In this document: one piece after another, positions 1 to 54,385 of the stretch
Numbering within the stretch: the stretch's first letter is position 1
How the letters are laid out: each line of letters begins with the position of its first letter
Notes under the pieces: model-generated
The model's input: the letters and a program-made list of their open reading frames with translations, nothing else
Database searches by the model: none
What the model was told of the DNA's origin: nothing
Assembly (NCBI RefSeq): GCF_039529835.1
Contig: NZ_CP154262.1
Location: 1,054,001-1,118,000 of the forward strand
Direction of reading: 5' to 3'
Source of the DNA: Arthrobacter sp. TMP15
GTDB taxonomy: Bacteria; Actinomycetota; Actinomycetes; Actinomycetales; Micrococcaceae
Length of the DNA stretch: 64,000 nt
Translations under genes and position numbers: made by a program

Positions 1-666
1 AGGCCAGCAATCGTCACCCTTGATCTTGGTCTTCCTGACATTGACGGGTTTGAGGTAGCGCGGCGAGTCCGGCTCTTCAGCGATGCATACATCATCATGC
101 TTACCGGACGGGCAGATGAGATGGACACTTTATTGGGGCTGGAAACTGGTGCCGACGATTACCTGACAAAACCCTTCCGTCCTAGAGAACTCCGTGCCCG
201 CATCAGTGCAATGATGCGCCGGCCACGAGTATCCAGCGTAGAGAATGTGACGGCGCAGGTAGTTACTCCAGCGATCGTCAGTGATATGGAGAGTTCCGGC
301 TCTAAGGATCCAGCCTTAGCCGTGACGGCGACTGCTTTAGCTACTGAACCGCGCACTCTCAACGGACTGGTTTTTGATTGTGGTGACAGGACCGCTGAAG
401 TGGACGGCAAAGAACTGGAATTAACGCGCACGGAATTCGATCTGCTTGCAGCGCTCTTCGACAGCGGTAAGCAAGTACGCACAAAGTCGGACTTGGTGCG
501 CAGACTTCGAGGGGAAGAATACGATGTTGGTTCTTTCATCAGCGACTCGGATGAGCGGACGGTGGAAGTTCACATGGCTAACTTGCGTCGCAAACTGGGG
601 GATAACCCACGTGACCCGCGCTGGATCAAAACCGTGCGCGGCGTGGGGTACCGACTGGTGGTTTAG
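1..666 (+). CDS. OmpR-family response regulator (5' truncated by window edge)
   Basis: DNA-binding two-component response regulator, open from base 1 in the same frame, so the N-terminus lies outside the window. The visible receiver half starts just before the phospho-acceptor Asp (codon 8, context VTLDLGLPD), followed by the conserved Thr (MLTGR) and Lys (LTKPF). A long linker of about 45 residues leads to a winged-helix domain with typical OmpR/PhoB features (LTRTEFDLL, RTVEVHMANLRRKL, VRGVGYRL). Its receiver resembles that of the lone receiver at 6959. The cognate kinase is not visible: it may lie upstream, or be the kinase at 7308. Family assignment is secure; the regulon is unknown. Confidence 0.93.
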   Translation, partial: RPAIVTLDLGLPDIDGFEVARRVRLFSDAYIIMLTGRADEMDTLLGLETGADDYLTKPFRPRELRARISAMMRRPRVSSVENVTAQVVTPAIVSDMESSGSKDPALAVTATALATEPRTLNGLVFDCGDRTAEVDGKELELTRTEFDLLAALFDSGKQVRTKSDLVRRLRGEEYDVGSFISDSDERTVEVHMANLRRKLGDNPRDPRWIKTVRGVGYRLVV

Positions 667-5065: not shown

Positions 5066-6904
5066 TTATTCTGCGGTGAATCGCAGCAAACGCATGGAAT
5101 CCACCGCGGCCTCGCCGATACGGTTTAGCTGGGCTAGCGCCCCTTGGGCCGTTGCCGGGTCCGCTGCGAGGATCAGTTCTACGATTTGTGCCCCCGCAGT
5201 CTCTAGCTGTGTTGCGCCTACCATCGTGGCGGATACCCGGATGCTACCGGCCGCATCGTTAGCCTGCTCGTAATTTTGTGCCGCTACCGCCTGTTCCAGA
5301 CGTGCCATACGCTGAGGCCACATCATGGCGAAGGCATTCGAGAAGTTGGTGGCCAGTTCTGCGCTGCCTAAATCCTCAGCTAGTTGCGCCAGAGTCCGCC
5401 GGTCAAGAACTGGCAGCTCACCAAGCATGAATACATCGGCCATAGCTAGGACGTTTCTGCCATCCTTGTTCCTAGCCGTCTTCGCCCAAGAATTACGCCC
5501 GGTCAATAGACGGCCTATAGCGCGGGGATAGTACAAATACGTAGCATAAAGGTAGAATAACGCTCCAACGCCCAGCAGTAGTCCACCAAATCCTCGCCCT
5601 TCTGTCCGTGTTTTCCTGCGATACAGGACCCCCCAACTCGAGTAGGGGATTAAAAGAAATAGGACGATCACCAGAACCTGCAGAATTACTGCGCTGGCGT
5701 CGAGGAAACCGAATCTGCCCTCAATGAGCGCAAAGTAAGTGAGGATCGGGATGAGCAACAAGTTACCCATCATTATCAACGGCTGAGCCATGAAATAATG
5801 AATTTCAAGTGCACCAGAGAATCTAAGCGACTTGGACCGGCGAAGATCAGAAAGCAAAGAAGCACATTCCATGTTGCCTTGTGCCCAGCGGGTACGTTGC
5901 GTTAGCAGACGGCGCGTGAATGGTAAAGCCTCTTGCGAGACATGACCCTCAGGAACATAATGGTTTCGCCAGCCGAGCCCCAATATTCGCAGTCCAAGTT
6001 CGTAGTCTTCGGCGAGCTTATTGCCCCAAGGCTTGCCATACTTTGTTGCTACCTCATCTAGAACGGACAGCCGGGTGAACTGTCCGTTCCCACCCATACC
6101 GACGGTGCCTGTGCGCACTCGAAGCATCTGCATGGCAGAATTAGTGGCCCGAAACTCCAAATCCTGCATTTTAATCAAGTATCTGGCCAATGCGTTTGAA
6201 GGTGTTCCCCGTTCCGGCAGTGGCCTCCGATCATCGCGATTTTTCATCCACACTTCAAGTTGGGCGGCGCCGACGTTTGGATCGCCGAAGGACTCAGGTC
6301 CGGACAAAAATTTGAGCGAGTCGTCTGAGAGATAACCGTCGGCGTCAAGAATGCCAATAACAGTCCGTGCCCGGCGAGAACTGTCGCTTCCGATGAAATC
6401 CGAAACAATCGTGAAAGCGTGGTTGAGGGCTTCACCTTTGCCGATTCTAGCCTCAGGGGGTACCCGGGATATCAGGTGCACGCGTTTATCGAAATCCATG
6501 GCACGGGAGACTACGGCTGCGGTCCCGTCTTCACTTGAGTCATCGATAACCCAAACATGTGCAAAGGGAAAACTGGTGCGGGCAGCAGAAATAGTGGCCG
6601 CCACCACGGTTTCCTCGTCTCGGCAAGGGATCAGAAAGTGCCAATCCAGAATCTCCGGGTCGCCAATGTTATTTGGGCGTCTGCGCAAATAGGCGTAATA
6701 GAGCATCGAAATATAGGTCAGTGCGCACGAAGCCGTTAACGTCACTGCCAGCAGCGCGGTGTCACGCCAAGGATTTTCACCAAAGTCTCCGAATAGACCG
6801 GAGCTGCAAAATACCAAAAATGCTGCAGCACCATAGACGAGAGCCAAAGCAACCATGACCACTGAATCAGCGCAGTGTGGGGCACGAGGCTGGTTTGTTG
6901 GCAC
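5066..6904 (-). CDS. Processive GT2 glycosyltransferase with C-terminal histidine-less HPt-like domain
   Basis: Membrane family-2 glycosyltransferase, 612 aa from the GTG at 6904 (AAAGGGAAG 8 nt upstream). Longer starts up to 6958 would run through the divergent promoter. Two N-terminal membrane segments precede a catalytic domain with WVIDDSSEDGT, a DAD metal motif (about 187-189), AEDYELG and a QRTRW motif (about 336-340) typical of processive synthases such as cellulose, chitin or hyaluronan synthases; at least three further membrane segments follow. The last ~115 residues look like an HPt four-helix bundle (PVLDRRTLAQLAEDLGSAEL), but where HPt domains have A-A-H-S-L-[KR]-G-S this has AAGSIRVS: the phosphorylatable His is Gly553. 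It faces the receiver/kinase pair at 6959-8990, suggesting control of polymer synthesis by two-component signalling. Product sugar unknown. Confidence 0.85.
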   Translation of the reverse strand: MPTNQPRAPHCADSVVMVALALVYGAAAFLVFCSSGLFGDFGENPWRDTALLAVTLTASCALTYISMLYYAYLRRRPNNIGDPEILDWHFLIPCRDEETVVAATISAARTSFPFAHVWVIDDSSEDGTAAVVSRAMDFDKRVHLISRVPPEARIGKGEALNHAFTIVSDFIGSDSSRRARTVIGILDADGYLSDDSLKFLSGPESFGDPNVGAAQLEVWMKNRDDRRPLPERGTPSNALARYLIKMQDLEFRATNSAMQMLRVRTGTVGMGGNGQFTRLSVLDEVATKYGKPWGNKLAEDYELGLRILGLGWRNHYVPEGHVSQEALPFTRRLLTQRTRWAQGNMECASLLSDLRRSKSLRFSGALEIHYFMAQPLIMMGNLLLIPILTYFALIEGRFGFLDASAVILQVLVIVLFLLIPYSSWGVLYRRKTRTEGRGFGGLLLGVGALFYLYATYLYYPRAIGRLLTGRNSWAKTARNKDGRNVLAMADVFMLGELPVLDRRTLAQLAEDLGSAELATNFSNAFAMMWPQRMARLEQAVAAQNYEQANDAAGSIRVSATMVGATQLETAGAQIVELILAADPATAQGALAQLNRIGEAAVDSMRLLRFTAE

Positions 6905-6946
6905 TGTGGGGGCTTCCCTTTCAGCAGAAGTAAAGTAACTCTTCAC

Positions 6947-6952
6947 TATACT
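6947..6952 (+). promoter_or_regulatory. -10 element TATACT, leaderless start of receiver gene
   Basis: TATACT lies exactly 6 nt before the ATG at 6959, which would put the transcription start on the start codon. There is no Shine-Dalgarno sequence in front of this ATG, and no clear -35 hexamer. Confidence 0.6.
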
Positions 6953-6958
6953 GGGCAC

Positions 6959-7330
6959 ATGTTGGATTTTAGGGGAAAAAAAGCACTGGTCATTGAAGAC
7001 GACGACGATATCAGGGGATTGCTGGAAATAGTTCTGAGCCAGATGGGCTTCTCAGTTACTTCTTTGGCAACGGGTCGGGCCGGCTTAGAAAGTGCGCGTA
7101 GTGCTCGGCCAGATTTGATCACATTGGACATTGGGCTCCCGGACATTAATGGAGTGGCTGTTCTGCGGGAACTGCGGATCTTCCACGATGGAAAGGTGGT
7201 GATGCTCAGCGCCCGTGGGCGCCAAGGGGATATTGACAGTGCCATGGCCGCGGGAGCAGACGCTTACATTCTCAAACCATTCAGGGCGACTTCGTTAAAG
7301 CAAGAACTTGCGGAAATCATTAGGCGCTGA
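6959..7330 (+). CDS. Receiver-only response regulator (CheY-like)
   Basis: A 123-aa single receiver domain with acidic pocket IEDDDD (residues 12-17), phospho-acceptor Asp57 (LITLDIGLPD), Ser in VVMLSAR and Lys in ILKPF. There is no output domain, so it must act by protein contact or phosphorelay. The ATG at 6959 is preceded by TATACT at leaderless spacing; an upstream in-frame extension to 6875 lies in the divergent promoter and is rejected. It overlaps the start of the histidine kinase at 7308 and is divergent from the glycosyltransferase that carries an HPt-like domain. A natural but untested idea is that it docks on that domain. Confidence 0.92.
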   Translation: MLDFRGKKALVIEDDDDIRGLLEIVLSQMGFSVTSLATGRAGLESARSARPDLITLDIGLPDINGVAVLRELRIFHDGKVVMLSARGRQGDIDSAMAAGADAYILKPFRATSLKQELAEIIRR

Positions 7331-8990
7331 GCCGCCTCGCGGTGACACGGACGCCACTTTACATCGCGGGTTGAGAGTCACTGTGGGGGCGGATTTCTTT
7401 GCCTTACCCCGTGCGTACAGGGTACTGTGGAGCCAGACTCCGCTGACCGTTACCACCTTGATTGTGGTGCTGTTCTTGCTAGTCATTGACCCAGACTTGG
7501 TAACAAACGAGCTATTTAGTTTGGGTGTTGCAGGGGTCTTCTTACTGACAGGCGCTGCTGCGCTGCTGCGCTGGAGCCGGCTGCCGCACTGGTGCATGTG
7601 GCTGGTTCCATTGGCGGATTTCATTCCCATTGGCGCGATGGTCCATGGCACCAATTCCACTTTGAATGGTGTGAGCCTTTTATCCGTCTTTCCCGTGCTT
7701 TGGCTTGCGTGGTCGGACATTCCCCCGCTCGTCACAAGGATCGTTGCTTTTTTCGCTCCCTTGGCCATCGCATGGGCACCTTTCATTTTTGCCACTACCG
7801 AGCCCACCCGTTCAGGCTTGATCAAACCGTTGCTGATCCCATTGATCATGTTGGCGCTGGCTATCGCAGCCACGATCGTCACCAGAAGTTTGACCGTGCA
7901 GGCGAAACGTTTGACGGAAACTTCTACCATTGCGCACCGACGGGCATGGCATCTTGACACCATTATCAACGTGGCAGAGGTGGGAGTAGTTGTAGTGGAT
8001 GAAGAAGGGCGTGACGTTCTCATGAACACTCGACAGCGGACTTTTCACAGTTTGGCCGTACCTCCAGGCAAGCTCAATCCAACTGAAGCGGAACTACTAG
8101 TGTTCGGTTCTGACAGGACAACAGCTGTAGAGCCGGTCAAACGGCCGGTCCAGCGAGCAGTGGACGGGGCCGAATTTTCTGGTGAGCTGTATTGGTTGGG
8201 CAGGGGGGTCAATCAGCGTGCTATGTCAACGTCGGCACGACAAATAATTGATGACCGCGGGAACAACCAGGGAGCAGTTGTGGTGTTCCACGATGTGACG
8301 GAAGTGATGGAAGCGGTGGCGGCGCAAGAAGATTTCGTGGCCAGTGTATCCCACGAACTCCGCACGCCACTCACCTCCATTCTGGGTTACCTAGAACTGG
8401 TCATGGATGAGGAGAAAGACGACACGACGGCTGCCTATCTGAAAGTAATTTCCCGCAATGCCGAACGATTGTTGACCCTAGTCAGTGACTTACTGGACTC
8501 GACACGCGATGGCATGGCGGTCTCTTTGGTTCCGGAGGATGCGTATCCTCTGCTTATCTCGGCAGTGGACGCTGCCCGACCGCGTGCTGTGGAACGGGGT
8601 ATTACGCTTCGTCTGGATGCCAAAGAGGGGATGGTAGGTAGCTTTGATGGCGGCAGGATCAGTCAGGCTATTGATAACTTGATCTCCAATGCCATTAAAT
8701 TCTCCCCTACCTCCAGTGTTGTGGACGTTGTGGGGTGGAATGAGGATTCTGACGTGGTGGTGTTGGTACGTGACTACGGGGTGGGCATGAATGATGATGA
8801 ACAAGCACGGCTCTTCACACGCTTTTACCGAACTGATTCAGCCCGCAGTGCCGCTGTGCCAGGTGTTGGTTTGGGGCTGGCTATCACCAAAGACATTGTC
8901 GATGCCCACGGCGGAACTTTATCGGTACACAGCGAAACCGGGAAAGGGAGTACTTTCACTCTGAGGATTCCGGCACTGGGCAAACAATGA
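7308..8990 (+). CDS. Membrane sensor histidine kinase with PAS-like domain
   Basis: Hybrid-free sensor kinase of up to 560 aa. Five to six hydrophobic segments (about residues 46-195) form an N-terminal membrane sensor, followed by a PAS-like region (about 205-335), a HisKA dimerisation domain with phospho-acceptor His349 (VSHELRTPLTS) and a HATPase domain with N box (NLISNAIKFSP), G1 (DYGVGMN) and G2 (GVGLGLAI). The start is uncertain: TTG at 7308 overlaps the receiver gene by 23 nt; GTG at 7383 is the main alternative and still leaves all membrane segments. Numbering is from 7308. Overlap with the receiver implies co-transcription and a functional pair. Confidence 0.93.
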   Translation: MRKSLGAEPPRGDTDATLHRGLRVTVGADFFALPRAYRVLWSQTPLTVTTLIVVLFLLVIDPDLVTNELFSLGVAGVFLLTGAAALLRWSRLPHWCMWLVPLADFIPIGAMVHGTNSTLNGVSLLSVFPVLWLAWSDIPPLVTRIVAFFAPLAIAWAPFIFATTEPTRSGLIKPLLIPLIMLALAIAATIVTRSLTVQAKRLTETSTIAHRRAWHLDTIINVAEVGVVVVDEEGRDVLMNTRQRTFHSLAVPPGKLNPTEAELLVFGSDRTTAVEPVKRPVQRAVDGAEFSGELYWLGRGVNQRAMSTSARQIIDDRGNNQGAVVVFHDVTEVMEAVAAQEDFVASVSHELRTPLTSILGYLELVMDEEKDDTTAAYLKVISRNAERLLTLVSDLLDSTRDGMAVSLVPEDAYPLLISAVDAARPRAVERGITLRLDAKEGMVGSFDGGRISQAIDNLISNAIKFSPTSSVVDVVGWNEDSDVVVLVRDYGVGMNDDEQARLFTRFYRTDSARSAAVPGVGLGLAITKDIVDAHGGTLSVHSETGKGSTFTLRIPALGKQ

Positions 8991-9063: not shown

Positions 9064-9783
9064 CTAGGCCGTGATGGTGATTGTGCGTTCCACCACGTTC
9101 ATGGAGGTCTCATACAGTGGCGTGCTGTGGGAGCGTGCGTAGGAACGCAGGAGGGTAAAAGCCTCATCCATGGTGACGTTGGCGGTTTGCGCAATGACGC
9201 CCTTGGCTTGTTCAATCACGATCCTGCTATTCAGCGCCCGCTGGAGCTGCTCATTCACCAGGGTACTTTCCCGCAGTGCCCGTTCCTGCAGGAGGCTGAT
9301 GGTGGCAATGTCAGCAAACCCTTGGGCCAGGATTGCGTCTTCCTCGCTGAGTCGGCCTTTCTCCTGACGGAAAAGGTCCAGAGCGCCGATGGTGTTCCCG
9401 CGCAGCCTCATGGGGACAGCATGAACTGAGACAAAGCCCTGTGAGAGCGCTGCGGCCTGAAAATGGGGCCAGCGTGCGCCATCGGAAGCAATGTCAGGGA
9501 CAGAGACCACGGTGCCCGTCCGAAAACACTCAATACATGGTCCTTCCCCGGCTTCCAGCTCAAGTACTTCCACAAGCTGGCTTCTCTCGCTCGTGGAGGC
9601 AACCACCTGTAATTCACCTGCAGGGTCCACCAGCAGCAGCCCGGCTGCTGAAGCATCTAGAAGTCCAACGGTCTCCCCAACAAGTGTGTGCAGCATGTCT
9701 ACAACGTCGTAGTCAGTCACCAAAGTGTCCGCTATCTTCACGAAAGCGGCACTCACGCGTCGGGCGCGGTTTATAGTCGACAT
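9064..9783 (-). CDS. GAF and ANTAR domain transcription antiterminator
   Basis: 239-aa regulator: an N-terminal GAF sensor domain (about 20-165; GEGPCIECFRTG, FVSVHAVPMRL) followed by an ANTAR RNA-binding domain (about 178-236; IEQAKGVIAQTANVTMDEAFTLLRSYAR). ANTAR proteins bind paired RNA hairpins and prevent termination. It is the second gene after a paralogous GAF-ANTAR gene, 37 nt away. The ATG at 9783 also has TAGAAT (9790-9795, minus) 6 nt upstream, so a leaderless internal transcript is possible besides read-through. Ligand and target RNAs are not visible. Confidence 0.9.
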   Translation of the reverse strand: MSTINRARRVSAAFVKIADTLVTDYDVVDMLHTLVGETVGLLDASAAGLLLVDPAGELQVVASTSERSQLVEVLELEAGEGPCIECFRTGTVVSVPDIASDGARWPHFQAAALSQGFVSVHAVPMRLRGNTIGALDLFRQEKGRLSEEDAILAQGFADIATISLLQERALRESTLVNEQLQRALNSRIVIEQAKGVIAQTANVTMDEAFTLLRSYARSHSTPLYETSMNVVERTITITA

Positions 9784-9820: not shown

Positions 9821-10507
9821 TCATCCTTGTTGTGTGAAGTCAAGGCGTTTGCTGACCACATCACGTGAGACCTCATGCACTGTTTGATCATGTGAAAAAG
9901 CGTGGGCGCGTAATAACAAAAGCGCATTCGTGGCCGACAGTCCTGTTTGGACCAAAACCATACCCGTGGCTTGGTGGATTGCCCGGCGGGAAACTCGCTC
10001 TGTGGACTCTGAGTGCTCCATACTTTGGGTGCCCTCAGCCGGACCTAGGGACAAAATGTACCGTAAAAGGTGCCAGGAGGCGGCCTCGCAAAGCTGGATG
10101 GCTAGTGAATAATCCGCGGATTCCAAAGATCCTGGCGTTGAGCTATACATTTCTATAAGACCCACATCTACGGCACCAACACGCAGCGGGAACACAAATA
10201 TGGCGGCTACCTCAAATTCGGAGACGGCTTTACTAAAAACAGGCCAGCTTACAGGCGCCTCCAATTTAACGTCTGGGAGCAACACCGGCTGGCGCGTTTG
10301 CAGCGCAGTCCACCGGGGCCCTTCCCCCAAATCAAATTGCAGCTCATCTATCCCGGCAGAGGTGGTGTCGCTGGAAAACACCGAGGTTTCTGGTCCAAAG
10401 CCCGAAGATGCTGACATAGAGATACCAGTAATGGGCAACTTCTGCAGAAAGCTTGCACATAGCCCAGCCCCAAAATGGGCAAATTCAGAGTCCACACTTT
10501 CAACCAT
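9821..10507 (-). CDS. GAF and ANTAR domain regulator (paralogue)
   Basis: 228-aa protein with a more divergent GAF domain (about 15-150; FDLGEGPRWTALQTRQPVLLPD) and a C-terminal ANTAR domain (about 165-225; IHQATGMVLVQTGLSATNALLLLRAHAF). Same architecture as the next gene, which it precedes by 37 nt, so the two are probably co-transcribed and may form hetero-oligomers. A CRP/GlxR-like palindrome (10512-10527) sits 5 nt upstream of the start codon, consistent with cAMP-linked control. There is no clear Shine-Dalgarno sequence. Confidence 0.88.
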   Translation of the reverse strand: MVESVDSEFAHFGAGLCASFLQKLPITGISMSASSGFGPETSVFSSDTTSAGIDELQFDLGEGPRWTALQTRQPVLLPDVKLEAPVSWPVFSKAVSEFEVAAIFVFPLRVGAVDVGLIEMYSSTPGSLESADYSLAIQLCEAASWHLLRYILSLGPAEGTQSMEHSESTERVSRRAIHQATGMVLVQTGLSATNALLLLRAHAFSHDQTVHEVSRDVVSKRLDFTQQG

Positions 10508-40687: not shown

Positions 40688-41791
40688 TTGGAAGAAACAA
40701 CTGATCCACCCGAGCCGCTGTCTCCTCTTGTCTCGCGTAATCTCTTACCCCCCGCCTCTCGCAATCAAACGCGAGCTCTTGAGGCGCAGCTTCTTGGCGG
40801 CGAGCGGACGCTCAAGCGCCGTGATGTTGCCGCCGGAGTGGGAGTCTCACTCTTATCTGCGCGTAAAATTTGGCGTGCCATGGGATTTCCCAACCTGGGC
40901 GATGACGATGTTGCGTTTACCCAGCGCGACCAAAAAGCGCTGCAAACTGTTGTCACAATGGTTCGGGAGGGCCTCCTGACAGAGGAAACCGCCATCTCCG
41001 TGACCCGCTCCATCGGTCAGATGACTGACAGGATGGCTGTCTGGCAGATTGAGGCGCTGGTAGAAGACCTTGTTGTGGAACACGGAGTCAGTGACGCTGA
41101 GGCACGCCGTGCAGTGGTATCTGAGCTGCCGAACCTGATTGCACCGTTGGAAGAACTTCTGGTGTATTCCTACCGCCGCCAGCTCAATGCCGGAATCCAG
41201 CGGCTGGCCGTGCGCGCCGAAGAAGGACTTGCTTCTAGTGAGTTGGGACGTGCCGGCGATGAAGACGATGCGCCGCTTCCCCTGGCGCGGGCCGTTGGTT
41301 TCGCAGATCTTGTTAGCTACACGTCGCTGTCCCGTCGCATGAATGAAAAAACACTTGCCCGTCTGGTGCAGCGCTTTGAGAACGTGTGTGCGGAGATCAT
41401 CAGCGTTGGTGGTGGACGCCTGGTGAAGACCATTGGCGATGAAGTGCTGTTCAACTGTGAAACCCCCGTGGCCGGCGCACAGATTTCCCTCTCATTGGCA
41501 GAGGCCATGGCTGCGGATGATTTCCTACCCGAGGCTCGGGTAGCCATGGTGTGGGGGCGGGTGCTCTCGCGTCTGGGCGATATTTATGGGCCAACTGTGA
41601 ACCTCGCCGCGCGGCTGACCTCACTGGCTGAACCGGGCACCGTGCTCATTGACTCCGTCACAGCGTCAGCTTTGAAAAATGACGACAGATTTGTGCTGAC
41701 CCAGCTGCCCGTTGAAAACGTCCGTGGATTCGGGGAGATCGCGCCCGTTCTTCTCCAACGTGGAACCGGCAAAGGCCTGGTTATCGACTGA
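40688..41791 (+). CDS. Class III adenylate cyclase, Rv1264-like
   Basis: 367-aa (TTG start at 40688, GAGAAGGAG about 10 nt upstream) soluble cyclase making cAMP. The N-terminal ~190 residues are a helical regulatory region like the pH-sensing, autoinhibitory domain of M. tuberculosis Rv1264. The catalytic domain has metal-binding Asp207 (VGFADLVSY) and Asp251 (TIGDEVLF), adenine-selecting Lys247 and the transition-state Asn/Arg in GPTVNLAARL, so it should be an active homodimer. Third gene of a likely birA-PH-cyclase operon. A CRP/GlxR-like site at 10512 shows that cAMP control may be used nearby. Confidence 0.92.
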   Translation: MEETTDPPEPLSPLVSRNLLPPASRNQTRALEAQLLGGERTLKRRDVAAGVGVSLLSARKIWRAMGFPNLGDDDVAFTQRDQKALQTVVTMVREGLLTEETAISVTRSIGQMTDRMAVWQIEALVEDLVVEHGVSDAEARRAVVSELPNLIAPLEELLVYSYRRQLNAGIQRLAVRAEEGLASSELGRAGDEDDAPLPLARAVGFADLVSYTSLSRRMNEKTLARLVQRFENVCAEIISVGGGRLVKTIGDEVLFNCETPVAGAQISLSLAEAMAADDFLPEARVAMVWGRVLSRLGDIYGPTVNLAARLTSLAEPGTVLIDSVTASALKNDDRFVLTQLPVENVRGFGEIAPVLLQRGTGKGLVID

Positions 41792-41935
41792 CCCGCCAGC
41801 CAGGCAACGCCTAACAAATAATCTTTAAGCCATCATGTGGAGCAATCCGCTAGGATGGCCAGGGGACTGATGATTGCTCCCATGTATTCATTCATACCCG
41901 ATTCTCCGGCCGGCGCGGGGAAGCAAAGGTTTGTC

Positions 41936-44900
41936 ATGGCATTGATCTCCCTGTTCACCTCCTTCACTAACAAGAGGCAACTCTTTACTGCTTCGGCAGC
42001 GATTGTTGTTTCGGCGGCAGTGGTGACAGGGGCAGTGATTTATCCAGGCTTCGCCACAGCTGACGTAGACCTCAACGACGGCAGCGTATGGGTCACCAAC
42101 CGTGCCGACGGTTTGGTGGGCCACCTCAATGACCAGTCAAAGGTCCTCGACGGTGGGTTTACGGCCACGAGCCCCACCTTCGACGTAGTTCAAAATGCCA
42201 GTAATGTTTTCATGAGCGGTGATGGTGGTTCCCTGCTGAATCCCGTGAACGTATCCATGATGGCAATGGATTCCGAGACTAGCCTGGGCGGCGGCAAAAC
42301 GGTTTCCCAGGGCAGCCATCTTGTAACGCTTAGCGATTCCGGTGCCGGGAAAGTTTGGGCAATGCCCAATGCGGAGGTGCCGGGTTTCAACGATAAAACC
42401 ACCAAGCCCATCCTGACAAATTTGGGTGGCGCGGTTTCTGTCACCGCACCGGATGACACTATCTACACTGCGGACAGCGATGCCGGTGAGCTGATTACCA
42501 CAGTGCTGAACGACGCCGGAAAAGTTGACTCCCAGGAGCGCACGGTCCTTGCCGGGTTGGCTGGTTTGGGAGACGTACAAATCACCGTTGCCGGTGGAAA
42601 ACCGGTGGTCTTTGCCGCGGCGAAAGGAACGCTGTTCCTTCCCGGTGGCAAGACCATCACTATTCCCAACGCTCAGGGAGCTTTGTTGGCCCAGCCAACG
42701 GAAGAGGGTGATTTTGTAGCCGTAGAAACGGCTACTGCCTTGTTCACCCAGCCTCTTGACGGATCAGATGCGAACGTTCTGCAGTTATCTGGCACAGGAA
42801 AAACTGTGGCCCCGGTAGTTCAAAACAATTGTGTCCACGCGGCCTGGTCCCGAGCAAACAAATATGTGCTGGCCTGCAACGGCAGTGGTGAACTGGTGGA
42901 CATCCCCAAGGCAAGCGGGAAATCAGAGTTTGTTTTCCGTAAAAACCGGGACGTAGTGGTCCTCAACGATGTCAATACCGGCAATGTGTGGCTGGTCAAT
43001 CAAAATATGCTCCTGGTCAATAATTGGGATGACCTGAAGACGGACTTGAAGAAGGCGGACAACGCTGACAAGGACTCGGCTGACCCGAACGTTGTCAACA
43101 CCTTGCCCGACAGGACCAAACCTAACCGTCCCCCCGAAGCAGTAGCGGACTCCTTTGGCGTGCGAGCAGGGCGGACCACCATCCTGCCGGTGCTCTTTAA
43201 CGATTCCGACCCCGATGGTGACGTACTCACAGTGGAGCCTCCCGGTGTGGCACCTGAGATGGGTGCGTTGGCCTCCATCTATGATGGAACAGGCTTACAG
43301 ATCACAGTCCCGGATGGACAAGCCGGGGCCGGATCCTTCGCGTATTCCGTCAACGATGGCCGCGGCGGCACCTCCACGGCGGCTGTCAATGTGCGGGTAG
43401 TGCCGGTGAGTGAAAACTCCCCTCCCGACACCATGCGTGACTCCACCCTGGTGGTGGAGTCGGGCCAGACCATGAGCCAAAATATCTTGACGGATTGGAT
43501 CGATCCCGACGGGGATGATATCTATCTAAATGACGCGGTGTCAGAGGACGGCTCAGCCGTCATCAAGTCCACCCCTGATGGTCAGCTCAGCTATACCGAC
43601 GATGGTGAAAATATTGGTATGAAGTCCATGATGATCTCTGTTTCAGATGGTCAGGACATCACCGAGAAAAAAATTCTCGTCAACGTCAAGTCGGCAGGGG
43701 CCGTGCCTCCGGTTGCCAATGCGGACTTTTTCAAGGCTGTGGTTGGTCAGCCAGTAGTGCTAGCCCCGTTGAAGAATGATCAGGATCCGGCGGGTGGCAA
43801 ATTGCGGTTGGCGAGCGTTTCCAAGCCGGAAAATTCAACGGTTTCTGAGATCGCAGATAATGGTACATTCATCTTTACCTCCAGTGCTGTGGGACCTGTT
43901 TATTTGGAATACCAGGTGACGAATGGACCAATGAGCGCAACAGGTCTTATTCGAGTTGAAGTGGTGGAAGCTGATTTACAAGGGCTGCCTGTTGCGGTCA
44001 GGGATCTGGTCATGCTGCCCTCAGGTGGGTCAGCTTTGGTAGATGTATTGGGAAATGACTCGGACCCTGCGGGCGGCGTGTTAGTCATCCAGTCTGTTGA
44101 ATTGCCTACAGGATCGCCTGTCTCCGCCACGATCATTGACCGAAACATCATCAAGGTGACGGATTTGCGTGGCTTGAAAGACAAAATGAGCATCAAATAC
44201 ACCATTTCCAACGGAGTCGGCAATGCTGCCGGCGAAATCTCGGTGGTTCGTATTCCCGCACCGGATAAGTTGCTGCCACCAAGAGTTGAGCCGGACACCG
44301 CCATTGTGCGGGTTGGGGATGTGGTGACCATCCCGGTCCTGGAAAACGACTCAGACCCCAATGGTGAGGTACTTAAGTCCCCCGTCGTGGTGGAGTCTCC
44401 GGATGAAGCCTTGGGCAAACTATTTACGGATCAGAACCAGCTGCGCTTTATTGCCGGTCCAACGGCCAAAACAGTCCAAGGCGTGTACAAGGTGGCGAAC
44501 AGCTCCGGTCAGTTCAACTCGGCGCAAGTCACTATCACCATTGTTGCAGCCGACCCCGAACACAATCTGCCGCCGGCCCCTAAAAACCTTACCGGACGTG
44601 TTATTGCGGGAGACCAGGTTCGGATTGTGGTTCCACTGGACGGTATTGACCCGGAGGGGGATTCCGTTGAACTGGTTGGAATTGACCAAGGGCCGGGGCT
44701 GGGAACAGCTGAGACAGGCAATGGGTTTATTTACTATACGGCCGGCGGGAGCTCCTCCGGAACGGATTCATTCACGTACCGGGTGCGCGACAGGCTCGGT
44801 GCCGAAGCAACAGCAAGAGTTGACGTTGGTATTGCCCCGCCACTTGCTGTGAACCACCCTCCTGTCACCGAGGACGATTACATCACGATGCGCCCGGGGC

Positions 44901-47900
44901 GCAAGCTTGCTTTGGATGTTCTGCTCAATGATTCCGATCCTGACGGTGGACAGTTAGGGCTGGTCAAGGATGGCTTCCAGGGCCCGGCTGAGATGAAGCC
45001 GACTGTGACGGAGAAGTCAAAAGTGCTTCTAACATCTCCAGCGGAGCCCGGCATCTCCACCATGATGTACACGGTTTCAGATAAGTTTGGAGCCACAGCC
45101 ACCGGCAATATCCGCATGACTGTGACAGCGGATGCACCTTTGAAAGCGCCCATAGCCCGCGATGACCGTGTCACGGTCAAACAGATGCTGGGCAAGAACA
45201 CAGTTGATGTTCCAGTGCTTGAAAATGATGCTGATCCAGACGGGGTGACGGAGGAGCTCAAGGTCAGTATTCAAGCAGTCACCGGGATGAACTTAGATAC
45301 TGCCACTGTCACTTCTGATGGAGCCGTCCGGGTTGAACTTGTCCCACAAGAACAGTTGATTCCTTACACCATTACGGATCAAGATGAGTTGAGATCCACA
45401 GCGCTCATCTGGGTTCCGGGGCAGGATAAGCAATACCCCGCGCTCAAGAGCACTGACGTCATTCGAATGACGGCCGGTGAGAGTGCCGTGATGAAACTTG
45501 CCGACTATGTCCAAGTCAGAGATGGACGCACTCCCCGGCTGACTGAGGAATCGAAAATCTCACTTGTTGGTGCAGGAAAAGACAATGTCATTGTTGGCGA
45601 TGGTGCCGGAGTCAATTATGCCTCCGACATCAAGTTCTACGGTCCCGGATCAATCACCTTTGAGGTCACCGATGGGACGGGACCGAACGATCCAGCCGGG
45701 CTAAAATCCACGCTAACCGTCATGACACTGGTTGATCCTGCTAAGGTGTCTACCCCCGATAAAAAAGACGAAAAGAAGAATACCCCACCCACGTTCACAG
45801 GATCCTCATTGGATGTGCCCCAACAAGAAAAAGCCAGTTTGGATGTAGGCCCTTTGGCATTCGATATTGATCCAGGGGATAAGGAAAAGTTTAAGTACGC
45901 CATGGTGAGCAGCCAGCCTGGAAACTTCGAGGTATCTTTCGCCGGTACCATTTTGAGCGTATCCCAAAGTAATGGCACCCAGGTGGGTGCGCAGGCAACT
46001 GTGCAGCTTAGTGTTACTGACGGCAGCAACGATCCGGTTGTGGCCGAAGTCCTCCTGCGCGCAATGTCAACCTCACTTCCGCCCCCGGTGGCAAATGATG
46101 ACATTGTGCTGGAGGCCTTCGCTGGCCGTGCTGAAGTAGTCAAAGTGTTGGCAAATGACGTCAATCCATTCCCCGATACGCCTTTGCGCGTGGTGGACAC
46201 AACGACGGAAACCGGCAGTGCGGGTATCACCGTGACGCACACGGGCGACAGCGTGAGTGTTAACAGCAATGAAGATTACAAGGGCACGGTGGTGGTTAGA
46301 TACACCGTAGAGGACAAAACCAAGGATGCGGGCCGGCACGCAACAGGCCGCATCAAAATCACCATCAAGGGCAAACCCGAGGCACCCAGCAAACCTCAGA
46401 TTGTTGAAGAACGGGACAAGGCTGTCCTGCTGAAATGGGATCCACCAGCAGATAATGGCTCACCCATTACCAAATACACTGTGAGCTGGGCAGGTGGTAC
46501 TCAGGATTGTGCCACCAACACGTGCACCATTACAGGGCTGACCAACGCCAAAGAATATAAGTTCGCTGTGGCGGCTAGCAATGCTGTTGGTACGTCAGCA
46601 CCATCGCCGTTATCAGCCGTTGCGATGCCAGATAAAGTTCCAGACGCACCGGGAGCCCCTACTACTACTTTTGGTGATAAGTCGGTCAGCGTTGAATGGG
46701 TGACGCCCGTGGGAGAATTCTCCGCCGTCACGAAATTCAACGTTGAAATATCGCCCGCGCCACCGGGACAAAACGGCCAGAAACCCGGGGTAACTGGCAA
46801 CTCCCTAACCTGGTCCGGGCTGACGAACGGAACTGAATACCAGTTCAGAGTCCAAGCCATTAATAAGGCGCCTAAACCTTCAGCGTGGAGCCCCTACTCA
46901 GCTTCGGTAGTACCGGCTGGCGTACCATCCGCCCCTGCCGCGCCCACTGTTCAGATGCTCAACCAGGTTGGCAGTCAGAACCAGATTAGCGTCCAGTGGG
47001 CGGCGCCCTTCAACAACGGCGCAGCTATCAGCGGTTACACGCTGACCCAAAGCGGCGGGGGTGAGCCCTCACGGGCCTACACGCCGGGCACCAACGCTCA
47101 GACCGTAACGGTGAACAACTCAACGGCTCCCTATACTTTCGCGGTAGTCGCCACAAACAAGGCTGGAACCAGCGGTGCCAGCCCTGCCTCAACCCCGCAA
47201 CGAGCCGTAGGCAAGGTGGGCATCATGGCCGCACCGAGCATAAAGATAGTGGATGAAACCGCAGCTGGTGGGCGTGTTCAAGTTGGCTACACACCTCTAA
47301 CTGCTGCGCAGCTCAATGGTTATGCAGCCAATGAGGTTACGTACTGCGTTACCCTCACCACTACGGGAGAAACCTGTGGAGTTGCTTCCGGAGCCGTTCT
47401 GTCCTCTCCTAATGGAAGTGGCGTAGCAGCCACCGTCAGGGCACGGGCCGCTACGGGAGCGTTCGCATCGAACGGGGACAACTCAGCAGCATCCCCCACG
47501 GTTACTCCTTACGGTGTTCCGCAGCGGACCACAGTGAGCGGAAACCAAGCCGGAGAGGGAGATAAGACCTTGAGCTGGACCTGGGCGGCGGCTAACAACA
47601 ATGGCAGTGCCATCACCCGTTACGAAAGCAGCCTCAATGGTGCTGGCTGGGAAAGCAGGGCAAAGGCTTTGAGCTTTTCCTTTACGGGAGTCTATGATCA
47701 ATCAGCAACTCTGAGCGTGAGAGCTTGCAACGCTGGGGGTTGCGGTGCGCCCTCCCCTGCGGTTTCAGCCAAAGCCGGGTCTAAACCACCACCTCCAGCG
47801 CCGCCGGTGACTGAAGTCCGTGTACAAGCTGGAGACTGGCACTCTTGTACGCAAGGACCTGGAGAACGCAACAACTTCTCATCCAACCCGGCTACCTGCG

Positions 47901-48091
47901 ACGGTAATATTTCCCCTGGGGGAAACGTTGATCTTGGGGGAAAGTGGCTGGATTATGCCGATGGTTGGGTTCAGGTGACAGGCTGCAGCGGCAGCTGGTA
48001 CGTCATGTCAACAGGTCCACAAGCCGGTCGCTGGGTTAAGGGCATCACAGTAGATGTGCGTGATCGCAATGGGGGCAACGTCCGCTGCTAG
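41936..48091 (+). CDS. Giant Ig-like/FN3 envelope protein 1
   Basis: About 2,051-aa surface-type protein. Basic N-terminus plus one hydrophobic segment ending GFATAD (signal peptide or anchor), then ~350 residues of beta-propeller-like repeats (GSVWVTNRADGLVGHLN), about eleven Ig/cadherin-like modules of ~95 residues with LxNDSDPDGD loops (likely calcium-binding), three clear FN3 modules (GLTNAKEYKFAVAASN, GLTNGTEYQFRVQAIN) plus two weaker ones, and a four-Cys C-terminal module whose last residue is Cys. The ATG at 41936 has AAAGG upstream; an in-frame extension to 41837 is rejected. Tandem paralogue of the gene at 48284. Probably an adhesin or cell-wall scaffold. Confidence 0.85.
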   Translation: MALISLFTSFTNKRQLFTASAAIVVSAAVVTGAVIYPGFATADVDLNDGSVWVTNRADGLVGHLNDQSKVLDGGFTATSPTFDVVQNASNVFMSGDGGSLLNPVNVSMMAMDSETSLGGGKTVSQGSHLVTLSDSGAGKVWAMPNAEVPGFNDKTTKPILTNLGGAVSVTAPDDTIYTADSDAGELITTVLNDAGKVDSQERTVLAGLAGLGDVQITVAGGKPVVFAAAKGTLFLPGGKTITIPNAQGALLAQPTEEGDFVAVETATALFTQPLDGSDANVLQLSGTGKTVAPVVQNNCVHAAWSRANKYVLACNGSGELVDIPKASGKSEFVFRKNRDVVVLNDVNTGNVWLVNQNMLLVNNWDDLKTDLKKADNADKDSADPNVVNTLPDRTKPNRPPEAVADSFGVRAGRTTILPVLFNDSDPDGDVLTVEPPGVAPEMGALASIYDGTGLQITVPDGQAGAGSFAYSVNDGRGGTSTAAVNVRVVPVSENSPPDTMRDSTLVVESGQTMSQNILTDWIDPDGDDIYLNDAVSEDGSAVIKSTPDGQLSYTDDGENIGMKSMMISVSDGQDITEKKILVNVKSAGAVPPVANADFFKAVVGQPVVLAPLKNDQDPAGGKLRLASVSKPENSTVSEIADNGTFIFTSSAVGPVYLEYQVTNGPMSATGLIRVEVVEADLQGLPVAVRDLVMLPSGGSALVDVLGNDSDPAGGVLVIQSVELPTGSPVSATIIDRNIIKVTDLRGLKDKMSIKYTISNGVGNAAGEISVVRIPAPDKLLPPRVEPDTAIVRVGDVVTIPVLENDSDPNGEVLKSPVVVESPDEALGKLFTDQNQLRFIAGPTAKTVQGVYKVANSSGQFNSAQVTITIVAADPEHNLPPAPKNLTGRVIAGDQVRIVVPLDGIDPEGDSVELVGIDQGPGLGTAETGNGFIYYTAGGSSSGTDSFTYRVRDRLGAEATARVDVGIAPPLAVNHPPVTEDDYITMRPGRKLALDVLLNDSDPDGGQLGLVKDGFQGPAEMKPTVTEKSKVLLTSPAEPGISTMMYTVSDKFGATATGNIRMTVTADAPLKAPIARDDRVTVKQMLGKNTVDVPVLENDADPDGVTEELKVSIQAVTGMNLDTATVTSDGAVRVELVPQEQLIPYTITDQDELRSTALIWVPGQDKQYPALKSTDVIRMTAGESAVMKLADYVQVRDGRTPRLTEESKISLVGAGKDNVIVGDGAGVNYASDIKFYGPGSITFEVTDGTGPNDPAGLKSTLTVMTLVDPAKVSTPDKKDEKKNTPPTFTGSSLDVPQQEKASLDVGPLAFDIDPGDKEKFKYAMVSSQPGNFEVSFAGTILSVSQSNGTQVGAQATVQLSVTDGSNDPVVAEVLLRAMSTSLPPPVANDDIVLEAFAGRAEVVKVLANDVNPFPDTPLRVVDTTTETGSAGITVTHTGDSVSVNSNEDYKGTVVVRYTVEDKTKDAGRHATGRIKITIKGKPEAPSKPQIVEERDKAVLLKWDPPADNGSPITKYTVSWAGGTQDCATNTCTITGLTNAKEYKFAVAASNAVGTSAPSPLSAVAMPDKVPDAPGAPTTTFGDKSVSVEWVTPVGEFSAVTKFNVEISPAPPGQNGQKPGVTGNSLTWSGLTNGTEYQFRVQAINKAPKPSAWSPYSASVVPAGVPSAPAAPTVQMLNQVGSQNQISVQWAAPFNNGAAISGYTLTQSGGGEPSRAYTPGTNAQTVTVNNSTAPYTFAVVATNKAGTSGASPASTPQRAVGKVGIMAAPSIKIVDETAAGGRVQVGYTPLTAAQLNGYAANEVTYCVTLTTTGETCGVASGAVLSSPNGSGVAATVRARAATGAFASNGDNSAASPTVTPYGVPQRTTVSGNQAGEGDKTLSWTWAAANNNGSAITRYESSLNGAGWESRAKALSFSFTGVYDQSATLSVRACNAGGCGAPSPAVSAKAGSKPPPPAPPVTEVRVQAGDWHSCTQGPGERNNFSSNPATCDGNISPGGNVDLGGKWLDYADGWVQVTGCSGSWYVMSTGPQAGRWVKGITVDVRDRNGGNVRC

Positions 48092-48283: not shown

Positions 48284-51200
48284 ATGGCTTTAAACGTTTT
48301 TGCCGGGAAGATCACGCAACGGCGGTTCTTCTCAGTATCCGCCGCTGCAGTTGTTTCCGCCGCTGTTGTTGCCGGGGCATTGATCTACCCCGGTTTCAGC
48401 ACCGCCGACGTGGATCTCAACGACGGCAGCGTGTGGGTGACCAACCGCAGCATCAACATGGTGGGGCACCTCAATGTCCCCTCGAAGGTGCTTGATGGCG
48501 GCTTCACCGCCACCTCGGATGGTTTCGACGTACTCCAGGACGCCGGAACGGTCTTCATGGACAACGATTCCGGGACCCTCCTGAACCAGGTTGACGTGCC
48601 CGCCATGACACTGACCCAGGACACAGCACTTGGCGCCAGCAAAACCATCTCCCTGGGCAGTGAAATCACTGTCATCACCGACCCGGCCTCCGGCAAGGTG
48701 TGGAGCGTACCCACCAACACCGCCGGCTCGTTCGATGAAAAAACCACAAAACCAATCCGGACGAAGATCACCAATGCACGCGCCGCCGTCGCCCTTAAAA
48801 CGGACGACGGCGTGAGTCAGGTTTTTGTGCTTGACCCGCGTGCCGCCGTGCTCACCGAGCTAAACGTCTCCGGTGACGGAAAAGTTATTGAGGCTACGGA
48901 CGCCACCATGGAGGGCTTGCCGGAAAACGGCCGGCTGACGCTAAGCGTTGTGGGGGATAAGCCGGTAGTGCTTGACCCCGAGACCGGGACCGTGTTTCTT
49001 CCGGGAAATAAAAAAGTGGTGGTCCCCTCAGCCAAGGGGGCAAAACTGCAGCAGCGCAGTGAGAAAAGCGATTTTGTCGCACTAGAAACCGGTAACTCGT
49101 TGGTGCTCCAACCCCTGGGCGGTGGCACGGCAACGATTATTGATGCGGGATCGTTGGGGACCCCCATTGCCCCAGTACAGCAGGGCGGCTGCGTCCACAG
49201 TGCCTGGAATGGCTCAAATAAATACCTTTTCCACTGTGTGGACGGTGAGTCAAAGCCACGGGATATTCCCAAGGCGACGGCGGCATCCGATCTGGTGTTC
49301 AGGAAGAACCGCGATGTGGTGGTGCTCAACGACATGGCCGGTGGGGACGTCTGGCTTGTCAATGAAAACATGATGCTTGTCAACAACTGGGATGATCTCA
49401 GTGTTGACCAAAAGAACGCCGAAGATTCTGATAAAGACTCAGCCGATCCCAACGTTGTGAACACGCTGCCGGATAGGACAAAACCCAACCGGCCACCCGT
49501 AGCCGAACCCGACCAGTACGGCGTCCGTGCCGGAAGCACCACGCTATTACCTGTGCTGTACAACGACTCCGACCCTGACGGCGACGTGCTCACAGTGCGT
49601 GACAGCGCCGAAAATATCAAGGCAGGGAGCTTGCAAACCGTCTATGGCGGGACGGGCTTGCAACTGGTGACTCCGGCTGACGCACCCGCCGTCACCGAAA
49701 CTTTTAGTTACACCAACGACGACGGTCGCGGCGGAACAGATCAGGGCGCCGTGAGCGTTCGGGTGGTACCCGAGGCTGAGAATTCAGAACCTGTTTCAAT
49801 GCGCCCCACCACCATGATTGTTGGCCAGGGGCAAACGATCAGCCAAAATGTTCTGGCAGACATGCTGGATCCTGACGGCGACAGCATCTTCCTTGTCGGA
49901 GCGTCCTCGGCCGAGGAAACCGGCCAGGTGAAGTTCACCCCGGACGGTGAACTGAGCTACACCGATGATGGATCCTCCAACGGTCTGCGCACCGTAACCA
50001 TCAAGGTCTCCGATACGCGCTCCATTGTGGAGAAGAAGATCAAGGTCAGCGTCAAACCTTCCGGCGGCGTGCCGCCAGTGGCCAACGCCGATTACGCCCG
50101 GGTTGTTGTGGGCCAAAGCGCCATTGTTGCACCCTTGGCGAATGACCAGGATCCGCTAGGTGGCGAACTTCGCTTAGCCAGTGTGGACAAGCCGGAGAGC
50201 GGAACTCTCTCTGCTATTGCCGATAACGGCACCTTCACCTTCTCTTCTGAAACTCTGGGCGCCAGCTACCTGACGTACCAGGTCACCAACGGTCCCCAAA
50301 GCGCTACGGGTTTGATTCGGGTTGATGTGGTTGCGGCGCAGAAAGACCTTGCCCCCATTGCTGTGAAGGATATGGCGCTGCTGCCCGTTGGCGGCAGCAC
50401 CTTGGTTGATGTCCTTGGCAATGACACCGATCCAGCTGGTGGGGTATTGGTGGTTCGCGGGGTTGACGTCTCAGCGGACGCAGGCGTCTCGGTAACCGTT
50501 TTGGAACACAACATTTTGAAGATTACTGACATCAGAGACCCAGGTTTCCCTGTCACCATTAATTACACAGTCTCAAACGGTCAGGGCACCTCTACCGGTG
50601 CTGTTGCCGTGGTACGTATTCCATCACCAGCTACGCTGCAACCACCCGTGGCGCATGATGACGTGGCAGACGTTCGGGTGGGCGATGTGGTGCGCATCCC
50701 CGTGCTCGCCAACGATTTTGATCCTAACGGGGCTACGCTAAAACATCCGGAAATTGTGGACCAACCGGATGAAGCAGCCGGAAAACTATGGGTGGATCAG
50801 GATTCGCTGCGTTTTCTGGCCGGGCCCACCCCGGGCGCTGTGAGCGTTATCTATCAAGTCACCAACGCATCGGGTCAAACCGATTCTGCCACCGTGACAA
50901 TCAACATCGTGGCCCAGGATGTTGAACGGAATCTGCCTCCGGCACCTAAAAATGTCAAGGGGCGGGTGATCGCCGGTGGTCAAACCAAGATTCAGATTCC
51001 TCTGGACGGTATTGATCCCGATGGGGACTCGGTGCAACTTGCCGGCATTGACATTGCCCCTACGCTGGGCACGGCCGTGGCGGGTAAGGGTTTCGTCTTG
51101 TATACGGCGGCAGGAAATGCTGCCGGGACTGACAAGTTCACCTATAAAGTCAGAGACCGTCTGGGCGCCGAAGCGATAGGAACGGTTGAGGTGGGGATTG

Positions 51201-54200: not shown

Positions 54201-54385
54201 CCAACTGCTCATCGCAGTGGTTGGAGGCCAACACCCCCGTGCAGGTCAACTGCTACAAGTATTGGGGTGGCAGGAATGATTCGCACAAGTGGTATCACAT
54301 CACTTCGCCCGGCTACAGCGACTGGGGATATGTGAAGGCCGAGTCTACGAATATACCAACTCCGGGCGGTATGGGGGAGTGTTAG
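48284..54385 (+). CDS. Giant Ig-like/FN3 envelope protein 2 (tandem paralogue)
   Basis: 2,033-aa paralogue of the preceding gene, co-linear along its whole length: the same start (SAAVVAGALIYPGFSTADVDL), propeller region with a conserved Cys pair (GGCVHSAWNGSNKYLFHC), the junction DPNVVNTLPDRTKPNRPPVA, about eleven Ig/cadherin-like modules, FN3 modules and a four-Cys tail ending in Cys. The C-terminal ~300 residues are the most diverged. AAGGG 7 nt before the ATG fixes the start. It is directly upstream of the moxR-DUF58-transglutaminase-FHA operon, whose chaperone ATPase and envelope proteins may serve its export or assembly (inference). Confidence 0.85.
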   Translation: MALNVFAGKITQRRFFSVSAAAVVSAAVVAGALIYPGFSTADVDLNDGSVWVTNRSINMVGHLNVPSKVLDGGFTATSDGFDVLQDAGTVFMDNDSGTLLNQVDVPAMTLTQDTALGASKTISLGSEITVITDPASGKVWSVPTNTAGSFDEKTTKPIRTKITNARAAVALKTDDGVSQVFVLDPRAAVLTELNVSGDGKVIEATDATMEGLPENGRLTLSVVGDKPVVLDPETGTVFLPGNKKVVVPSAKGAKLQQRSEKSDFVALETGNSLVLQPLGGGTATIIDAGSLGTPIAPVQQGGCVHSAWNGSNKYLFHCVDGESKPRDIPKATAASDLVFRKNRDVVVLNDMAGGDVWLVNENMMLVNNWDDLSVDQKNAEDSDKDSADPNVVNTLPDRTKPNRPPVAEPDQYGVRAGSTTLLPVLYNDSDPDGDVLTVRDSAENIKAGSLQTVYGGTGLQLVTPADAPAVTETFSYTNDDGRGGTDQGAVSVRVVPEAENSEPVSMRPTTMIVGQGQTISQNVLADMLDPDGDSIFLVGASSAEETGQVKFTPDGELSYTDDGSSNGLRTVTIKVSDTRSIVEKKIKVSVKPSGGVPPVANADYARVVVGQSAIVAPLANDQDPLGGELRLASVDKPESGTLSAIADNGTFTFSSETLGASYLTYQVTNGPQSATGLIRVDVVAAQKDLAPIAVKDMALLPVGGSTLVDVLGNDTDPAGGVLVVRGVDVSADAGVSVTVLEHNILKITDIRDPGFPVTINYTVSNGQGTSTGAVAVVRIPSPATLQPPVAHDDVADVRVGDVVRIPVLANDFDPNGATLKHPEIVDQPDEAAGKLWVDQDSLRFLAGPTPGAVSVIYQVTNASGQTDSATVTINIVAQDVERNLPPAPKNVKGRVIAGGQTKIQIPLDGIDPDGDSVQLAGIDIAPTLGTAVAGKGFVLYTAAGNAAGTDKFTYKVRDRLGAEAIGTVEVGIAPEDSSNRPPAAADDFISMRPDRKVALDVVLNDTDPDADQLFVIKDGFNGPDEMEPSVTDLGRVLLTSPSATGIATMGYTVSDPSGARATANIRMNVTPDAPLRAPIARDDEVTIQEALGKNTVTVPVLKNDEDPDGVADELALTLTLPNENASINSDGTLRITLSAKPQMIPYTVTDQDKLSSSAIVWVPGLDAQYPVLASNEVIKVQAGETAVANLGDYVKVREGRTPRISQADKIQMIGAPAREALTADGAALTYKADLAFYGPGSITFEVTDGTGPEDPDGLKSTLTIMTEVTPAPAKNLPPKLQGTELTVAQLESGTVNLGLLASDPEKDQLKFAITGDSPAGLKTKLDGASLTVEAAKEAGLGSAHSLGISVEDGHNPPVTAEVNIIVSSSTKPKAVANADSVPDAHAGRMETIPVLENDVNPFPDTALKIVDAKMVTGAPGTQVSVAGSNVTVQAPEDFTGNVVVLYTVADKTEDPARHVDGRITLNVKGKPAVPAVPLVQEVKSKSVLLKWSTPVDNGSALTGYTVKRSDGLTQSCATNTCLITGLTNSKPYTFTVSAKNAVGESAFSKASASATPDQQPDKPAPPAIVRGDTTLDVSWVTPVGEYSAVKSFNVQISPVPAGQNPQKSVTGNKLVWPGLTNGTEYTFRVQAINSAPKPSEWSAYTAKAVSPAGKPFAPAPPTTSLVDQVGNQNQVRVNWSAPKLNGGVLKQYTLFTYLDGAQKDAITTTQTSQTVSLPNAVANYTFKVQATTEVSGSELSPASAGWRSVSQPGQVGQPTIALANTGGSGGQVTLTFPALSGAALGGATPGEITYFANVSPGANNIPVTSGQTISATNGANTTVTVRAKSAVFASSGSASAPSNSVKPYGTPGTAGLSGSNGGADSTSVSYSWSFPGGAVDAKHVEILLPSGGWSSKNGNGSASFNTGGYDTQVTIQARTVNSIGQYGPVQTVTPKSGKKTPPKPTSWTLSVNPRSCLEKASGNGDHFTPGSPANCSSQWLEANTPVQVNCYKYWGGRNDSHKWYHITSPGYSDWGYVKAESTNIPTPGGMGEC

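Follow-up and report, generated by a model that had tools for sequence, protein, structure and literature searches.

The window analysed here, a 64,000-nucleotide stretch of the Arthrobacter sp. TMP15 genome, carries a gene for a putative polysaccharide synthase of glycosyltransferase family 2 (GT2) and, divergent from it, genes for a response regulator and a sensor histidine kinase (Table 1). The synthase matches PF13641 (GT2 family, E 3.9e-20) in a Pfam search and has the motifs of processive GT2 enzymes of the BcsA, HAS and PgaC type (D, D, ED and QxxRW), with D122, D126, D187, D189, E299, D300, Q336, R337, R339 and W340 invariant across 29 aligned relatives, in agreement with its first description as a QRTRW-type synthase. 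A Foldseek search with the full model placed its fold nearest to BcsA and hyaluronan synthase, and the enzyme is predicted to produce and export a polymer. The resemblance to BcsA (best match 5ej1, TM-score only 0.43) is one of core architecture: in both, membrane helices accompany the GT2 core and a regulatory domain makes up the C-terminus. In BcsA this domain is a PilZ domain that reads c-di-GMP, whereas no PilZ domain was found in the window synthase among Pfam matches up to E 1, and an HPt fold is carried instead. The ORF caller also offered an alternative upstream start for the synthase, at 6958.

Table 1. Features of the synthase locus (window positions), and related signal peptidase fusions (positions within each named locus)
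Feature	Coordinates	Strand	Basis or remark
GT2 polysaccharide synthase, processive-type, with C-terminal pseudo-HPt	5066..6904	-	612 aa, stop codon within coordinates
Pseudo-HPt (His-less HPt-fold) domain, residues 495-612	5069..5422	-	Profile, AlphaFold, structure matches
Codon 553, Gly at the HPt phospho-acceptor His position	5246..5248	-	Translation, alignment
Low-confidence linker, residues 482-492, from synthase core to HPt-like domain	5429..5461	-	pLDDT < 50
QRTRW motif, residues 336-340	5885..5899	-	Q336, R337, R339 and W340 invariant in 29 aligned rows
54-base gap between divergent synthase and receiver genes	6905..6958	.	Synthase start 6904, receiver ATG 6959
Single-domain response regulator, 123 aa	6959..7330	+	PF00072, E 3.2e-24; Asp14/15, Asp57, Ser84 and Lys106 kept
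Receiver codon 57, phospho-acceptor Asp	7127..7129	+	Receiver alignment
Sensor histidine kinase (PAS, HisKA, HATPase_c)	7308..8990	+	H-box SHELRTP intact
SipW-type peptidase with His-less HPt	L209:4089-5237	-	PF10502 and PF01627 matched
SipW-type peptidase with His-less HPt	L212:6142-7296	-	PF10502 and PF01627 matched
SipW-type peptidase with His-less HPt	L214:5611-6897	+	PF10502 and PF01627 matched
SipW-type peptidase with His-less HPt	L210, L211, L213, L242		

The Pfam Hpt model (PF01627) matched residues 525-593 of the synthase below its curated cut-off of 24.6 (E 0.003, 18.2 bits), and the last 125 residues alone, at 21.1 bits, also stayed under this gathering threshold; some orthologues exceed it, for example that of genome G150 with 32.7 bits. 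AlphaFold modelled the tail as an HPt helical bundle, and the top 25 rows by Z among solved-structure matches were all HPts, so that the HPt-like bundle originally proposed from alignment by eye was confirmed. A profile of 46 tail-type domains (hereafter A1) also finds HPts in the PDB, the best being 7c1i (E 1.1e-8). Alignment of the tail AAGSIRVSATMVGA with a canonical HPt AAHTLKGSSGNMGA set Gly opposite the phospho-acceptor His that PF01627 domains possess, at the codon to which the loss had first been assigned. The invariant columns of the A1 alignment are L21, R45, S67, G76 and L80, with no His among them; a hidden alternative phospho-His in the tail, which had been named as an outcome that would speak against the proposal, could thus be ruled out.

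The response regulator has PF00072 as its sole Pfam match, with no output domain, and its frame overlaps that of the kinase by 23 bases provided that the TTG at 7308, the ORF caller's choice, is correct; the real kinase start is perhaps further in. Both the missing output domain and the overlap had been read from the sequence at the outset. Hydrophobic stretches are visible by eye in the N-terminal part of the kinase. Asp57 and Lys106 are kept in all 48 aligned receivers (20 short, 28 OmpR-type; one per nearby domain, duplicates kept), and the H-box is intact in 18 of the 19 kinases encoded beside synthases fused to a pseudo-HPt, the kinase of L035 being split between frames.

Elsewhere in the window, two proteins that contain Big_9, cadherin-like and fn3 repeats are encoded one after the other (41837-48091, 2,084 aa; 48284-54385, 2,033 aa), and a MoxR-type AAA gene follows (54545-55516). 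The product of 40688-41791 resembles class III adenylate cyclases and has a regulatory domain (PF00211, PF16701), and two adjacent GAF-ANTAR proteins are encoded at 9064-9783 and 9821-10507.

When relatives were searched with the synthase, short proteins matching its tail alone surfaced. A1 was run over 396 genomes of the window's order, where 51 matched at E 1e-8 (21 of 109 genera), and over 396 genomes of the phylum, where 48 matched at E 1e-5, the order's own counted in. His was absent from 81 of the 84 matches in the order, a figure to be read in the light of A1 having been built from His-less members, which it favours: in G027, a genome from the window's family, Pfam Hpt found three canonical HPts belonging to hybrid kinases, all of which A1 missed. 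Across every locus examined, 111 of the 114 distinct domains of the order have another residue at this position (Leu 78, Gly 10, Ala 8, Ile 4, Val 3, Met 2, Gln 2, Glu 2, Arg 1, Ser 1), and all 111 belong to the order. Outside it, His was present in 27 of 27 loci read, corresponding to 25 distinct domains; the phylum search listed 70 matches including those of the order, and of 28 outside loci fetched, L110 failed re-search and was left out of the count. In the window's genome, Pfam search and inspection of the sequences revealed three Hpt matches, all His-less. Short matches were also present in G108 and G254 by Pfam search, and two free pseudo-HPts matched no NCBIfam family.

The His-less domains share their fold and much of their helix pattern with canonical HPts such as HptB (7c1i) and ArcB. 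Apart from the acceptor His, they have lost the H+4 Gly, which is replaced by Ser, Val, Thr or others, and in many cases the H+3 Lys. The lost His is mostly followed by Ser, and H+8 is mostly Met, with V, L or A and then GA after it; relatives outside the order have mostly Asn at H+8. Among the three His-bearing domains of the order, L254 and L257 look like canonical HPts, and L243 is a member of the family. The latter (L243:1499-1849(-), DAVHSVTTSSMMVGALE) has His at the otherwise lost position in a DAVHSVTTSS setting with no canonical LKGS, possibly a relic or a regain, and is a counter-point to docking as the function of the family. A further member, L218:6161-6478(+), has Glu at the His position (AAAESLRASSETMGAAA) and lies downstream of kinase and receiver matches on the same strand. 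In a domain tree drawn from an earlier set of 77 plus 23 rows, with only 117 columns and with branches that are long, the row L127, which has His, sits on a long branch inside the His-less part, a placement that we do not trust.

The tail domain is under purifying selection, with dN of 0.08-0.14 against dS of 0.44-2.15 in 12 chosen pairs. This low dN/dS and the family-wide, conserved absence of His rule out a decayed remnant, the one term of the original prediction that did not survive; as judged from these alignments, the tail is a member of a selectively maintained His-less family. That the tail still relays phosphate through another residue is highly improbable: nothing speaks for it, no His is conserved, 111 of 114 domains in the order do without it, and two of the other three are canonical HPts.

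We next considered the company that the fused synthase keeps. Nineteen fused loci were compared: the window, its near-copy L031 from Arthrobacter sp. H35-MC1 (synthase 100% identical), and 17 others drawn from Nesterenkonia, Brevibacterium, Brachybacterium and further genomes. L077, whose synthase is split between two frames, was counted; L044, cut by a contig end, was not counted as fused, and the kinase count omits L188 because of its short flank. Within 3 kb of the synthase, 19 of 19 fused loci encode a short receiver and a kinase, in three arrangements. In the window and L031, receiver and kinase are divergent from the synthase; in most loci the kinase precedes the synthase on the same strand and the receiver converges on the pair; and in L077 the synthase is followed by a converging receiver and then by the kinase. 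The outer flanking genes differ by eye between genera, which indicates that the module as such is kept. Within its own genus (22 genomes, G000-G021), the fused synthase was found in the window's genome only, which tells against the docking proposal below.

As a control, 24 HPt-less GT2 loci (L133 and L137 with shorter flanks) were searched for matches to the receiver and kinase of the window (E 1e-4) and to A1 (E 0.01), and no receiver, kinase or pseudo-HPt was found in any of them. Chance adjacency of receiver and kinase is ruled out by these loci together with the small number of receiver domains in the window's genome, 22 in 3.7 Mb. An exosortase-like gene occurs in the stretch in 17 of the 24 HPt-less loci (L078-L081, L132-L151) and, searched with two exosortase-like query proteins, in none of the 19 fused loci, of which L032 has flanks of about 0.5-1 kb. 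Exosortase PF09721 was likewise not found in the window's genome (G000) at E 0.001. NF053846 (XrtP-associated glycosyltransferase) is nonetheless a close sequence family to the window synthase (E 3.8e-154; 513.6 bits, curated cut-off of 520 not reached), the fused loci having pseudo-HPt, receiver and kinase in place of an exosortase. In a tree of the core alone, 16 fused rows split from 13 unfused rows on a branch with support 100/100, so that one fusion event is enough; the fused tails also form one group in the domain tree (19 rows, support 94).

These comparisons bear on the possibility that the tail is a structural or dimerisation element, with receiver and kinase acting elsewhere and their linkage reflecting co-expression only. 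The synthase core does occur without a tail, as in the 13 aligned HPt-less relatives, which share 28-43% identity with the window synthase. We nevertheless find this reading distinctly unlikely: the domain accompanies a kinase-receiver pair in every fused locus, the 24 HPt-less relatives lack domain, receiver and kinase alike, the His-less domain recurs on an unrelated signal peptidase and as a free protein beside receivers, and a receiver with no DNA-binding domain needs some other target.

Over the whole family, 63 of the 111 His-less domains have a receiver gene in tail-to-tail orientation no more than 750 bp away, far above chance given the 22 receiver domains of the window's genome. By class, this holds for 18 of 19 domains fused to GT2 (the lone exception being the window type), for 3 of 7 fused to a signal peptidase and for 42 of the other 85. 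The original prediction had named homologues without the neighbouring receiver and kinase as evidence against it; fused homologues keep both in 19 of 19 loci, but relatives of the tail not fused to GT2 are less constant, with a tail-to-tail receiver in 45 of 92. The 48 His-less domains without one include most Arthrobacter-type free members, near which a kinase is encoded and the receiver lies further off, and for many loci the flanks, at about 1.5 kb, display near neighbours only. Seven distinct His-less domains, in two groups (tree of 5), form the C-terminus of a SipW-type signal peptidase, and an OmpR-type regulator converges on the fusion in L212-L214. Arthrobacter-type free members sit among SipW-type peptidases, kinases and an OmpR-type regulator, with GGDEF-EAL proteins nearby in some genomes and with proteins that we label TasA-like from position and appearance, there being no Pfam match.

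Just left of the window, locus L082 (G000:C1:1036000-1054000) forms with window positions 1-666 a cluster of this sort. It comprises a free His-less HPt (L082:9442-9801, matched at G000:C1:1045444-1045800) about 13 kb from the synthase, two kinases, a VanZ-like protein and a SipW-type peptidase together with its possible substrates; an OmpR-type regulator of the cluster straddles the window start. A third His-less HPt of this genome, L083:9724-10083(-) on the 112-kb contig C2, adjoins a gene for an 852-aa bacterial Ig-domain protein. In two loci, L208:6670-8475(-) and L217:6161-8881(-), free pseudo-HPt genes seem by eye to overlap the end of a glycosyltransferase-like gene in another frame.

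Gene linkage shows a common pathway, not contact, and the tail could instead bind the kinase, recruiting it to the synthase or tuning its kinase/phosphatase balance, with the receiver feeding back. Linkage to the kinase is no less constant than linkage to the receiver (19 of 19). Six wide Arthrobacter-type loci place a kinase gene immediately upstream of the free pseudo-HPt, on the same strand and 280-349 bp away, with the nearest receiver 4-11 kb off. The plant pseudo-HPt AHP6 is reported to compete for kinases and receivers alike (PMC6963811). Against this, HPt folds classically dock receivers, the receiver gene is the tail-to-tail partner of 63 of the 111 domains, and many such pairs have no kinase of this type in the examined stretch, many stretches being short. 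On balance, binding to the kinase rather than the receiver appears unlikely.

In OmpR-type regulators the alpha4-beta5-alpha5 face serves dimerisation on DNA, and alpha1 meets kinases and HPts. Among the single-domain receivers (n = 19, the 20 short ones above less L027, an OmpR-type frame cut by the locus end; receivers were taken from the same 77 plus 23 rows as the domain tree), mean entropy was 0.37 bits in alpha1, 1.90 in alpha4 and 1.84 in alpha5; among OmpR-type receivers beside other pseudo-HPts (n = 28) it was 1.57, 1.06 and 0.66, at similar mean identity (57 and 61%). With alpha1 nearly frozen and alpha4 and alpha5 drifting, the reverse of the OmpR-type set, the single-domain receivers look released from dimerisation and held to the face that docks HPts and kinases. 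Conservation of alpha1 fits docking on the tail, though the kinase alone could also account for it.

Taken together, we consider it reasonably probable that kinase, receiver and synthase work as a single module by which production of a cell-surface polysaccharide is controlled rapidly and after translation, with the receiver docking on the tail. The membrane kinase would sense a signal and phosphorylate Asp57 of the stand-alone receiver, whose output would be to dock on the synthase, its alpha1/beta5-alpha5 face meeting the HPt-fold tail. As the tail has no His, phosphate would stay on the receiver instead of being relayed, and an HPt fold that once carried phosphate would now read the state of the receiver. 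The tail follows the last membrane segment on a flexible linker, in the slot that PilZ takes in BcsA, and would face the cytosol, assuming the usual GT2 topology; docking could then shift it relative to membrane and catalytic core and so switch synthesis. Since positions H+3 and H+4 of canonical HPts face the receiver, loss of the H+4 Gly and often of the H+3 Lys means that the docking geometry must differ from the canonical one. As far as sequence can tell, the idea put forward originally, a phosphorylated receiver that binds the pseudo-HPt and gates synthesis of a polymer, is supported; docking, its dependence on phosphorylation, its effect on the enzyme and the nature of the polymer are what we infer.

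The closest tested parallel is EpsW-EpsZ of Myxococcus xanthus, in which a kinase-phosphorylated single-domain receiver is reported to stimulate an exopolysaccharide enzyme post-translationally by direct interaction (PMC12802240). All 19 fused synthases similarly have a phosphorylatable single-domain receiver and a kinase linked to a polysaccharide enzyme, and the receiver would act by contact here too. EpsW acts on the phosphoglycosyl transferase that initiates a Wzx/Wzy pathway and not on a processive-type GT2 synthase with a fused pseudo-HPt, and the part of that report available describes no HPt-fold docking domain for the pair (PMC12802240). Because phosphorylated EpsW activates by contact, activation is our first guess, and the phosphorylated receiver would more likely activate than repress the synthase. 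The opposite sign, in which unphosphorylated receiver on the tail holds the synthase off (or on) and phosphorylation releases it, seems rather unlikely, a judgement that overlaps with the probability given to the preferred reading. Nothing in the sequences fixes the sign, and a tail that cannot remove the receiver's phosphate could bind either state; in the nearest tested case, however, the phosphorylated receiver is both binder and activator (PMC12802240).

AHP6 offers the second parallel, as a protein with no acceptor His that acts in a His-Asp pathway through binding (PMC6963811). It is a free competitor of true HPts in a phosphorelay, whereas the tail is fused to an enzyme and, as the three Hpt matches in the window's genome all lack His, would meet few true HPts or none to compete with. 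A search of open-access literature, which need not be exhaustive, yielded no bacterial His-less HPt family and no HPt-fused synthase; on the subject it gave plant pseudo-HPts, EpsW-EpsZ, a bacterial kinase domain without His and the RcsD transmitter. Pseudo-HPts in plants and receiver-controlled polysaccharide enzymes in Myxococcus are thus each known, and the literature searched showed no bacterial module in which the two are fused.

A broader reading, which we hold only tentatively, is that the fused synthases arose once, with the kinase-receiver-pseudo-HPt module replacing an exosortase partnership, and that a family of HPts almost invariably devoid of His exists in Micrococcales-type bacteria, its members having given up phosphate relay to serve as response-regulator sockets. 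These sockets would be fused to, or lie beside, a polysaccharide synthase and SipW-type peptidases, with free forms often tail-to-tail with OmpR-type regulators, such that two-component output may proceed by docking on enzymes as well as through transcription, the partners being biofilm-matrix machines.

Single-domain receivers are common and their targets often unknown, and a His-less HPt as a docking mark would reveal such targets from sequence. If the proposed module is real, it would add a mode of control for polysaccharide synthases beside c-di-GMP and PilZ, would show how an HPt can become a reader, and would connect several probable matrix components of a large actinobacterial group through a single signalling fold.
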